Below, one piece after another: positions 1,572-25,044 of a DNA stretch of 48,850 nucleotides. The position numbers were made by a program, and so were the translations under genes. Numbering within the stretch: the first letter of the stretch is position 1; each line of letters opens with the position of its first letter. The DNA lies in contig JAUVCN010000005.1 in the NCBI GenBank assembly GCA_030595715.1, positions 1 to 48,850 of the forward strand. The letters are read 5' to 3'. The notes beneath the pieces were generated by a model. It saw only the letters and a program-made list of their open reading frames with translations. It was not told the DNA's origin and ran no database searches. This DNA comes from Thermoplasmatales archaeon. Lineage in GTDB: Archaea > Thermoplasmatota > Penumbrarchaeia > Penumbrarchaeales > Penumbrarchaeaceae.

Positions 1572-1682
1572 TACCTGTATGGAAGAACATATATTTCAGA
1601 TTTCAACCTTTAGCTCACTTTCGTCGATAGATCCGATAGGATCCTGTAACTTGCTTTCGTCATTGATATCACTCGTAAGTTG

Positions 1683-2009
1683 GTCCTTTTTCAAAGGATT
1701 TGAATACTATGGAATTACTTTGAAAAAGGGCATCAAATTATGTTGTACATACTCGTAACTTCCTCACGTCGATTCCATATCTTTTCGGAAGTTCGAGGTC
1801 CAGCTAAATTAGACCGTCGATAACGCAACTCATTCAGCGGACTTTTTTCAAAGATTATGATTAGATATTGAATCCTTTGAAAAAAGAGTGTTGCAGGGGT
1901 CTCGGAAGAGAGGATTGTTCAGCATATTGGAGTGATACACCTAAGAAACAGTTACTCCCCTGCAACGTAGTTCGTATAGCGAGTTGTATGGGGCGATGAT
2001 CCATACAAC
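1683..2009 (-). ncRNA. Candidate structured RNA / interspersed hairpin element, locus 1
   Basis: Minus-strand order: GTTGTATGG/CCATACAAC; GTTGCAGGGG/CCCCTGCAAC; CTTTTTTCAAAG/CTTTGAAAAAAG; GTCC...GGAC; CTCG-A-ACTTCC/GGAAGT-TA-CGAG; CCTTTTTCAAAG/CTTTGAAAAAGG. Same architecture as 5331-5709. Confidence 0.55.
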
Positions 2010-5287: not shown

Positions 5288-5330
5288 TAGAGTTAGACCA
5301 AACGTGGGATCTAAAATGGGATGCACTCTG

Positions 5331-5709
5331 TAGGGGCCCCGGCTATTTTTCGGGGGAAAAATGGGGCCCCTATGCTCTTTTTTGAAAAATGAATTGTAAA
5401 CACTTCCAATCATTTTTCAAAAAAGCCCGTAAAACAGTTTTATTGAATCGACGCTCTGTTTTACTGGGCCTCGAACTTACGTATCTTTGTTGAATAGACG
5501 GAAGTAAGTTACGAGTTCATCGCAACTCTAAGGAATTTTTTTAAATAATCAGCATCTTAGAAAAAAGTCCCCACAATGAGTATAGGATTGACGGTTTAAT
5601 TACGCTGAGCCTCGAACTCACGTCATTTCAAAAATTAACAAGAGTGAGTTACGAGTTCAACAGAAATTCTAAGAACCCATTATGGAATATTATACTTAGA
5701 TAAAAGTCC
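5331..5709 (+). ncRNA. Candidate structured RNA / interspersed hairpin element, locus 2 (two tandem modules)
   Basis: TAGGGGCCCC/GGGGCCCCTA (5331-5372) with inner ATTTTTC-GGGG-GAAAAAT; CTTTTTTGAAAAATGA/TCATTTTTCAAAAAAG (5377-5425); GCCCGTAAAACAG/CTGTTTTAC-t-GGGC; CTCG-A-ACTTAC/GTAAGT-TA-CGAG (5470-5515); TCTAAG/CTTAGA; CTCG-A-ACTCAC/GTGAGT-TA-CGAG (5611-5655); TCTAAG/CTTAGA (5668-5700). Confidence 0.6.
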
Positions 5710-5751
5710 GCTGAATGAAATGTTCAACTACAATGCCCCCATAGACCATAC

Positions 5752-7050
5752 ATGGAGAACTCCCCCTCTGATCGAAAAAATGCGGTCCTGGTCTGGATCT
5801 CCGAAGATGATGATCTTGTTGATGAAACAAAGGAGCTCTGTTCCTCCGCAGGTTACACGATAATAGCAGAGGTTAGACAATCCAAGGACCAACCACATAC
5901 AAGATACTACATAGGCCCCGGCAAGATCATCGAGTTAAAGGACATTGAGGGGATCGACCATCTGATCACACCAGTTGATCTCACTCCATCCCAGATATTC
6001 AATATGGGAAAGATGTCCGGCCTCACTGTAGTTGACAGGATCAGGGTCGTGCTTGAACTGTTCAGGTCCAGGGCGACCAGCCCGGAAGCGAGACTCCAGG
6101 TGGAGATGGCCGACCTGAAATATCAGTTGCCCATACTCCGGGAATTCATTCATCAAGGGACCTTATCCGATCGACCGGGATTCCTTGCAGGAGGGGAGTA
6201 CAGGGTCGATTATTACTACGAGATGGCAAGGAAAAGAATGGCCCATATAAAGGACCAACTGAGGATCCTGAGAAAGAGGAGAGGAATGACCAGGACACTG
6301 AGGAAAAGAAGAGGATCACACCTCGTTGCTGTCGCGGGGTATACCAATTCAGGGAAATCGACCCTCTTGAATGCCATATCCGATGCGAGGATGCCCGAAA
6401 AATCAGTGGATACAGCCGACAGGATGTTCACAACGATAGCAACGTCGACAAGGAAAATGAAGGGGGACCGTGATTGTATCATTACCGATACGGTCGGCTT
6501 CATCAGGGACCTTCCCCCCTGGCTGGTGGAGGGATTCATGTCAACATTGGAAGAGGTCTTTGAATCGGATATCATCCTTCTTCTTGTCGATGCTTCGGAG
6601 GATAAGGAGAAGGCAACAAGGAAGACACTGGACTCCCTTGACATCCTCAGAAGGGGGAACTGCTCGGGAAAGATAATACTGGTCATGAACAAGATGGATG
6701 CCATCTTGGAGGGATCTGACCACATCATCCCGGAGAGGGACCTTCCTTTCGAATATTTCAACACGATAGATGCCCAGATAGAGATATCTGCCAGGAACGA
6801 AGAGGGATTGGAGGACCTGATCAAGAGTATAGAGGCACTTCTCCCTGACCTTTTCAGGGTCAGGATAGAACTCCCCCTTACATCAGGGAGTGAGCGGATC
6901 ATGAAGATCATCAGGGATCGATCCATCGACCTCAAAATAGACTACTCGGGAACCCTTGCTACCATTGAATGTAGGATGGAAGAGAGATGGGCCATGTCGC
7001 TGAAGAAGATGCTGAATGCCGAGGGAGGTTCCCTGGACATGGAAATATGA
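5752..7050 (+). CDS. hflX: GTPase HflX
   Basis: N-terminal HflX region (YYIGPGKIIELK, DRIRVVLELFRSRATSPEARLQVEMADLKYQLP), G1 GYTNSGKSTLLN, G3 DTVGFIRDLP, G4 NKMD. Confidence 0.93.
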   Translation: MENSPSDRKNAVLVWISEDDDLVDETKELCSSAGYTIIAEVRQSKDQPHTRYYIGPGKIIELKDIEGIDHLITPVDLTPSQIFNMGKMSGLTVVDRIRVVLELFRSRATSPEARLQVEMADLKYQLPILREFIHQGTLSDRPGFLAGGEYRVDYYYEMARKRMAHIKDQLRILRKRRGMTRTLRKRRGSHLVAVAGYTNSGKSTLLNAISDARMPEKSVDTADRMFTTIATSTRKMKGDRDCIITDTVGFIRDLPPWLVEGFMSTLEEVFESDIILLLVDASEDKEKATRKTLDSLDILRRGNCSGKIILVMNKMDAILEGSDHIIPERDLPFEYFNTIDAQIEISARNEEGLEDLIKSIEALLPDLFRVRIELPLTSGSERIMKIIRDRSIDLKIDYSGTLATIECRMEERWAMSLKKMLNAEGGSLDMEI

Positions 7051-20119: not shown

Positions 20120-20215
20120 CTATTTAGATTCGTTTTTCACATCCTTGATCATCTCATTGGTGACCTGCTTGATCGTTTGTCTGATCTCGGCACCGAAACG
20201 TTTCTGCTGGATCCT
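20120..20215 (-). pseudogene. Possible truncated gene 3' end abutting the left 193-bp repeat
   Basis: Minus-strand frame RIQQKRFGAEIRQTIKQVTNEMIKDVKNESK-stop runs up to the repeat boundary at 20214, where an in-frame stop interrupts it; no start codon in context. Confidence 0.3.
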
Positions 20216-20406
20216 CGGTCAATCCGGCAAAAGTAGTGTGGCGAGGCGTTATGTGTAGTTGGCGAATAAACATGAAAACACCTGGCCACGAAGAAGAATA
20301 GAGTACTCAAGACATATATGAAAAGCAAGAAAAAAGAACTGCTTGATCAAAAATCTCAGTTCTCATTCGCACAGTGATATTTCTTACAAATCTCAGATTT
20401 GGAGAT
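20214..20406 (+). repeat. 193-bp direct repeat, left copy
   Basis: CTCGGTCAATCCGGCAAAAGTAGTGTGGCGAGGCG...AAATCTCAGATTTGGAGAT; identical to 24585-24777 except ...ACATATATG... vs ...ACATATAAG.... Confidence 0.95.
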
Positions 20407-21179
20407 TATTTTATAGAGTATGACTCTAACTCTTCCATGGTCATAAGTTGACTACCTTCATATTCTACACTCTTTATGTTCATATTAAACTCTGGACAGT
20501 AATAATGAAGTGCATAAGTATCTTGTCCAACAGTATCAACCCTAATTTCATAACATTCAAACGTACCAGCGGGAACAGTTATTTCCTTTTTTCCGAGAAC
20601 TTCATAGTTCTTTGTATAAGTCCCATCACTACTATCTTCATCAACTAATTCCCCATTCAAGTATATTTTCATATCATCGTCACTTTTTTCTTCAATGGAA
20701 AAACTCAATCCTTCTTTAATTTCATATGGAATATTACCGGTAGTTGTATATGAGGTTCTACCCTCCATTCTCATATTAATCCAATCATCATCATTATCAT
20801 ATTTTACTTTAATATTCAATTCAAATTCAACATTGACTAACTCAAAATCACTTTTTCGAATAAACCCCGTTCCGGTTCCATCCCCCTTATCATAATAAAC
20901 CTCATTTACATCATCAGAGTATTCATCGAATTCGAATTCGATATCAACGACAGCCACTTCATCGCCATCATATAAATAACTCTCACTAGTCACAACCATG
21001 GTCATCGATCCAGATCCAAAATCATTATCGGTTATCTTATATATCCACACGTTCCCCATTTTTATAATATCATTATCACTTTCTTTATCATCTGATGAAC
21101 CTATACATCCTGTCATAATCACAGTTATTATCATAATTGACGATATAAAAGTCAATAATTGAAGTTTCTTCACACACAT
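20406..21179 (-). CDS. Predicted secreted lipoprotein of the AT-rich island
   Basis: Lipobox-like N-terminus from internal ATG at 21179: MCVKKLQLLTFISSIMIITVIMTGCIGSSDDKE; the ORF-track start at 21416 would give an implausible extension. Confidence 0.7.
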   Translation of the reverse strand: MCVKKLQLLTFISSIMIITVIMTGCIGSSDDKESDNDIIKMGNVWIYKITDNDFGSGSMTMVVTSESYLYDGDEVAVVDIEFEFDEYSDDVNEVYYDKGDGTGTGFIRKSDFELVNVEFELNIKVKYDNDDDWINMRMEGRTSYTTTGNIPYEIKEGLSFSIEEKSDDDMKIYLNGELVDEDSSDGTYTKNYEVLGKKEITVPAGTFECYEIRVDTVGQDTYALHYYCPEFNMNIKSVEYEGSQLMTMEELESYSIK

Positions 21180-24584: not shown

Positions 24585-24777
24585 CTCGGTCAATCCGGCA
24601 AAAGTAGTGTGGCGAGGCGTTATGTGTAGTTGGCGAATAAACATGAAAACACCTGGCCACGAAGAAGAATAGAGTACTCAAGACATATAAGAAAAGCAAG
24701 AAAAAAGAACTGCTTGATCAAAAATCTCAGTTCTCATTCGCACAGTGATATTTCTTACAAATCTCAGATTTGGAGAT
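24585..24777 (+). repeat. 193-bp direct repeat, right copy
   Basis: Same sequence and orientation as 20214-20406, with one substitution observed by eye. Confidence 0.95.
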
Positions 24778-25044
24778 CTTTCTATTGACCCCCAATTCCG
24801 GCAAAGGGCCATTAAATCTCATATGGCACATAATAGGAGAATAAATGACATAATATTGACATTATTAGATATATTGAATAAGATCCATTTCCACATGAGT
24901 ATTATCTTGCAATAGTATTTTACTTCCAAATCAATATGACATTGCGGAGATACCCTCATCATTTCCCTTCCTGGCATATTATTATGATGTCCTTTCACAC
25001 ATTTGGGGTCAATGGTTCAGATCCTCAATAAAAATGGAGATGGA

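Follow-up and report, generated by a model that had tools for sequence, protein, structure and literature searches.

The window, the whole stretch of 48,850 nucleotides that was analysed, is contig C62 of a Thermoplasmatales archaeon genome of 3.07 Mb in 197 contigs. It carries two hairpin arrays. One, at 5377-5718, lies between a gene for a ribbon-helix-helix (CopG-type) protein and a gene for an HflX-type GTPase; the other, locus 1, lies between a gene of the ornithine/aspartate carbamoyltransferase type and a helix-turn-helix gene. The parts of the two loci are as follows.

5331-5372, plus strand: P0, the terminator-like hairpin of the CopG-hflX interval, whose T-run is the apparent insertion point of the array and which is kept without an array in G002, G003, G005, and G007
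5377-5425, plus strand: P1 hairpin of unit 1, its 3' arm AAAAAAG complementary to the CTTTTTT behind P0 (from sequence and fold)
5425-5469, plus strand: P3 hairpin of unit 1, with an extrahelical T and a loop containing ATCGACG (match to covariance model R1 at 5425-5516, 87.1 bits)
5470-5515, plus strand: P2 hairpin of unit 1, 11 bp with a bulged A (pattern and R1 match)
5525-5568, plus strand: P1 hairpin of unit 2 (from sequence)
5568-5610, plus strand: P3 of unit 2, its outer stem degraded (R1 match at 5567-5656, 72.7 bits)
5611-5655, plus strand: P2 hairpin of unit 2 (exact pattern match)
5667-5718, plus strand: closing P1 followed by the beginning of one more P3, which is truncated (GTCCGCTGAATGA); inverted match to 1830-1881
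1842-1886, minus strand: P1 hairpin of locus 1, directly behind a terminator-like hairpin at 1890-1966
1752-1842, minus strand: P3 (1798-1842) and P2 (1752-1797) of locus 1 (R1 match, 95.1 bits)
1640-1730, minus strand: second P1 of locus 1 (1685-1730) and a degraded P2-like hairpin (1640-1685), recognized by eye (R1, 18.9 bits, E of 0.13)

The hairpins described in an initial annotation, made from the sequence alone, are all in place: P0 at 5331-5372, the first P1 at 5377-5425, P2 at 5470-5515 and 5611-5655, and the last P1 from 5667 onward. The fold predicted for 5374-5709 is 3.7 standard deviations better than those of shuffled sequences, and that of the opposite strand is 4.2 standard deviations better. 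By eye, no promoter is seen before the array at 5377. On the minus strand at 1890-2037, two strong hairpins (1983-2009 and 1890-1966) precede locus 1 behind a TATA-like TTTATATC; this segment is perhaps a small RNA gene ending in a terminator where locus 1 starts.

Aligning 15 units with MAFFT and folding the alignment with RNAalifold gave two hairpins, P3 and P2. Both have a foot of 4 bp and an upper stem, and in each the 3' strand carries a single extrahelical nucleotide, T in P3 and A in P2. With P1 these make up the repeating unit, in the order P1-P3-P2. The initial annotation had correctly seen two modules and a closing P1 but had described the unit as P1, a linker, and P2. The ATYGACG motif that it assigned to the linker is there, although in the RNAalifold consensus the linker is hairpin P3 with its one extrahelical T. 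The P2 hairpin likewise stands, while its proposed A/TA internal loop is better described as a single A bulged from the 3' strand between stem segments of 4 bp and 7 bp. Relatives carry a fuller form of about 195 nt, P1-P3-P2-P4, in which P1 (GGTATGAAAAT..ATTTTCATACC) and P3 (CCCGCACAAC..GTTGTGC-T-GGG) are followed by an optional insert of 50 to 70 nt of more hairpins, by P2 (TTTCG-AAGTCCC..GACGARAGGGACTT-A-CGAAA), and by the terminator-like hairpin P4 (AAACCC..GGGTTTTTT), with which the element ends; a few copies in the archaeon's own genome keep this form (L090, 177.9 bits, and L081). Inspection of the alignment of full-length copies (A2) found no terminal inverted repeats, the ends TTTGGTATG.. 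and ..GGGTTTTTT not being inverted repeats of each other, and no target duplication was demonstrable. In the same alignment the 5' arm of P1 (ATGAAGAT) is also able to pair with ATCTTCAT in P4 (L041, L042, L045, and L052), so that P1 and P4 could be alternative folds.

Further copies, which the initial annotation had proposed to seek with a covariance model, are abundant, far more so than chance would give. An exact search for the P2 pattern CTCGAACTNNC..GTTACGAG gives 10 matches in the 3.07-Mb genome, against 0 for a reversed control, and with model R1 this genome yields 50 units in about 27 arrays. R1 also has matches in all seven other genomes of the family and in 0 of 29 genomes outside it. 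A second model, R2, built from the ~195-nt full form, matches 8 of 8 family genomes in four genera (45 matches in the own genome and 1 to 11 in each of the seven relatives, which represent three other genera) and, in a larger search with stricter filters, 0 of 186 other sampled genomes of the phylum Thermoplasmatota. Matches to the P2 pattern in named genomes fall in Candidatus Thermoplasmatota metagenome assemblies; the sole one beyond them, in a proteobacterial MAG (L064), has no element around it and was taken as a chance match. The viral contigs searched gave no match. Rfam returned nothing at the gathering thresholds in the window and nothing at an E value of 1 or below on four loci, in keeping with the earlier remark that no named RNA family was recognizable; inspection by eye revealed no H/ACA or C/D box motif and no group II domain V, and no described match to the repeat was found in the literature. 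The repeat is real, family specific, structured, and noncoding, and it is apparently undescribed. Beside the elements of one genus, g2, stands another repeated hairpin, whose loop, GCTTAAACATTGCTTAGCTCTTAA, is conserved (L155, L159, L150, and L198).

The compensatory stem changes noticed between the first few copies extend to the whole set. Among 74 distinct units, 94.4% of cells pair, versus 74.1% after shuffling; 17 of 18 pairs show double changes, as do 41 of 44 pairs among 60 distinct longer matches; and the covariation score of the 74 units is 0.515, versus 0.179 +/- 0.010 for shuffled alignments and less than 0.09 for all slid controls, values that are biased upward in that both alignments were fitted to the model. 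In the first MAFFT alignment, before model fitting, 10 of 18 pairs already had double changes. The initial annotation had named a lack of further copies, a lack of covariation, and copies too divergent to align as findings that would speak against a structured element; copies are numerous and alignable, and they covary by pair counts with controls. G-U pairs outnumber A-C mismatches (35:17 and 65:38), which favors the strand as read, toward which the model-fitted alignment itself leans. Overall there are few G-U pairs, and in many stems one Watson-Crick pair directly replaces another (G-C to C-G, A-U to U-A), a pattern that would fit a hairpin of single-stranded DNA as well. Covariation does not discriminate RNA from single-stranded DNA.

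An upstream feature is identifiable for 23 arrays of the own genome; 20 of these are oriented in its sense by hand count, with genes taken from a simple caller, so that single upstream assignments may be wrong. The upstream features include long genes for secreted proteins, the 3' end of a 16S rRNA (L074, recognized by eye), a tRNA-Asn (L086), and a noncoding RNA of no named family (L068); in G004, a 5S rRNA, also recognized by eye, precedes L104. Orientation is mixed in the other genera, where gene 3' ends are still the usual neighbor. A strong hairpin (-12 kcal/mol or better) lies just upstream of 40% of elements, versus 12% of gene 3' ends, an enrichment for which the difference in medians is not significant within the own genome alone. 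At both window loci and at L073, L075, and L082, the 3' arm of P1 is complementary to the T-run in front of it (AAAAAAG to CTTTTTT; AAAATTAAAA to TTTTAATTTT). Judged from the sequence, this complementarity could represent guide-like pairing or a by-product of palindrome correction.

Comparison with relatives revealed empty sites. When HflX was used to locate the CopG-hflX interval in the seven relatives, an array was found in 0 of 7, while P0 with its GGGATGCACTCTG flank is kept in G002, G003, G005, and G007, members of two other genera; in the third genus the interval has diverged. P0 is thus a separate and older hairpin, at whose T-run the array starts, and the initial view of P0 as part of the module had to be abandoned. 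As far as the orthologous sequences indicate, the array arrived behind the T-run of P0. In a second interval, in which a Zn-ribbon/TRAM-like protein faces a secreted protein, an array of ~670 nt lies directly at the T-run in the own genome; G001, G002, G003, G004, and G007 have no array there, and G006 has element matches. A third synteny probe, the ferredoxin-like gene beside L071, has different neighbors in different genomes. At three positions the own genome and other genera both carry an element facing the same way (L068 and L153, L082 and L105, L075 and L101); in two intervals the elements of different genera face opposite ways. Empty sites and shared positions together imply either that old residents coexist with later arrivals or that some terminators are hot spots.

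The flank of P0 (ATGGGATGCACTCTGTAG, window 5316-5333) is a perfect 18-nt complement to a segment of a conserved, noncoding-RNA-like region elsewhere in the genome (..GGAAAGGGTTAG..CAGAGTGCATCCCATCCCCTCTG..CCCTTTCACA), represented by L180 (G000, contig C47, about 6617-6629), L173, L176, L177, L178, and L182 in three of the four genera and without a match in Rfam. The 13-mer GGGATGCACTCTG occurs exactly twice in each of G000, G003, and G005, once at P0 and once in this region. The flank and the region are a possible small RNA/target pair.

Elements also lie within one another. At L075, L081, and L074, each within a single contig, a unit lies between the two arms of a host P2 hairpin, and those arms have kept their pairing at 11 of 11 positions, with host spans of 185, 184 (itself inside an outer P2), and 338, respectively; at L072, L073, L076, L068, and L075, the nested unit occupies the 3' side of a host P3 stem. 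The same kinds of insert are found in hosts whose stems differ, and arrays vary in length and composition between loci. As an alternative to insertion, the nests could stem from duplication of composites with later change of the stems.

The start of the array at the T-run of an older terminator, the dispersed and nested copies, and the sharing of only three positions between genera point to a dispersed repeat of the mobile type. We put at a little better than even (roughly 55%) the model that the array at 5377-5718 and locus 1 are copies of a family-specific, nonautonomous hairpin repeat spread behind stem-loops by a trans-acting factor. Such a factor would recognize the folded single strand by its bulged A and T and by the ATYGACGR in its loops, and it would place new copies directly 3' of a stem-loop, either behind intrinsic terminators or in the repeat's own hairpins. 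P1 may take part, given how often the complement of the preceding terminator's T-run appears in its 3' arm. The searches for a mobilizing enzyme gave no partner in the own genome, where a Y1 transposase, a reverse transcriptase, and a tyrosine recombinase were each rejected or unsupported: the Y1 (HUH) transposase PF01797 is found in 0 of 8 family genomes, with control genomes positive; reverse transcriptase RVT_1 is found once each in G001 and G003 and not in the own genome, G000; and the tyrosine recombinase PF00589, present in 6 of 8 family genomes, is represented in the own genome only by a fragment match of 57 positions. The assembly is about 96% complete, and so a mobilizer gene could have been missed. 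The failure to find a known mobilizing enzyme argues against mobility, as do the three cross-genus positions, which argue for long residence or hot spots, the lack of terminal inverted repeats and of a demonstrable target duplication, and the hairpin enrichment that falls short of significance in the own genome. If the repeat moves, its mobilizer lies outside the enzyme families searched. It is conceivable, though we are inclined to doubt it, that the repeat belongs to a new class of hairpin-only archaeal mobile element, in which an enzyme would read the folded strand through the bulged A and T and the ATYGACGR loops, the 3' arm of P1 would pair with the target T-run, and insertion behind stem-loops and inside the repeat's own copies would proceed without Y1 transposase, reverse transcriptase, or integron integrase.

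Other explanations account for parts of these observations. The very strong covariation with its conserved loops, the sense orientation behind genes for secreted proteins, 16S rRNA, and tRNA, the excess of G-U over A-C (35:17 and 65:38), the terminator-like P4, and the three positions common to genera would all suit a resident 3'-end RNA element whose hairpins work in read-through transcripts, where they would provide protection, a second chance at termination, or a protein-binding site, and which selection on RNA at transcript ends would maintain. We consider this rather unlikely as a general account, since the orthologous terminators of relatives lack arrays, arrays behind a terminator should yield little transcript, orientation is mixed in other genera, G-U pairs are rare while stems swap directly, and units are nested; for some copies, the three shared positions make a resident RNA function possible. 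The initial proposal of a stand-alone structured RNA of ~350 to 400 nt is in line with the same covariation and with the fold z score of -3.7, but the length and composition of arrays differ between loci, the array begins at the terminator of another transcript, an older hairpin with its T-run, and copies are dispersed and nested, those of the own genome and of other genera coinciding in place and orientation at three positions only; we set this proposal aside as very improbable.

Passive growth, by replication slippage, template switching at palindromes, and gene conversion, would need no insertion enzyme, and palindrome correction would keep the stems paired. The tandem 135-bp units in L103, the P1 hairpins duplicated around units in L091 and L097, the direct Watson-Crick swaps with few G-U pairs, and the failure to find a mobilizer speak for it, yet it does not readily explain why the repeat is scattered over many loci and four genera, why arrays were gained at orthologous terminators, or why the same insert types turn up in hosts whose stems differ, and we judge it unlikely. 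Membership in a known hairpin-based mobile class (REP/RAYT, an integron attC array, or a group II intron remnant) would be suggested by the extrahelical bases of the hairpins and by a placement behind terminators that recalls group IIC introns (PMC7161350). It is the least probable of these alternatives: the own genome gave no match to Y1 transposase or reverse transcriptase and only a fragment match to an integrase, Rfam gives no match, and no gene cassettes lie between the hairpins.

By the features tested, the repeat is a member of none of the BOX elements, the CGTC-type REPs, or the group IIC introns. We know of no sequence relation between it and the pneumococcal BOX, which comes from another domain of life. 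BOX is its nearest analogue by organization, as are CGTC-type REPs by the missing transposase and group IIC introns by target (PMC3049150, PMC3733652, PMC7161350). BOX elements, built as boxA-boxB(n)-boxC, share with the repeat a variable number of structured modules, the lack of an open reading frame, an excess of copies at gene 3' ends, insertion of one copy into another, and a predicted RNA fold (PMC3049150). They differ in having terminal inverted repeats, of which none were seen here, whereas the archaeal repeat nests whole units inside hairpins and starts its arrays at terminator T-runs. REPs are single palindromes of 20 to 40 bp with an unpaired tag at one foot, and the CGTC type has been reported in five bacterial phyla (PMC3733652). 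Like the archaeal repeat, REPs are dispersed and mostly downstream of genes, and the CGTC type has no dedicated transposase; the GACG of the repeat is CGTC on the other strand (PMC3733652). The archaeal unit, in contrast, has three hairpins of ~45 nt with GACG inside a loop, and nothing in it corresponds to a CGTC tag left unpaired at the base of one 20- to 40-bp palindrome; nor do the 8 family genomes contain the Y1 transposase of REP/RAYT (IS200-IS605-type) systems. The R boxes of attC sites follow the consensus RYYYAAC / GTTRRRY, and these boxes are absent from the archaeal repeat, in which the arms of the full-form P2 are TTTCGAAGTCCC / GGGACTTACGAAA. Integron attC arrays, which are also known in archaea, resemble it in their single-strand hairpins with extrahelical bases and can occur as arrays without an integrase (PMC9668308); for the repeat, the own genome gave only the 57-position fragment match to PF00589. 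The repeat has no cassettes and has three different hairpins per unit. Group IIC introns insert in sense downstream of terminator stem-loops, beside a T-rich stretch (PMC7161350), and the repeat too lies behind such stem-loops, in sense, at a T-run; it is only ~195 nt long, matches no intron family in Rfam, and has no reverse transcriptase in the own genome.

With empty sites, placement at terminators, self-nesting at several levels, and more than 60 covarying sequences, this archaeal family of structured dispersed repeats offers a direct way to test how REP- and BOX-like repeats spread when they have no transposase of their own. Elsewhere in the window, two copies of a 204-nt direct repeat, 98% identical (20214-20417 and 24585-24788), flank three minus-strand open reading frames that have no Pfam match above the curated cutoff, and the segment that they bound is possibly mobile or duplicated.
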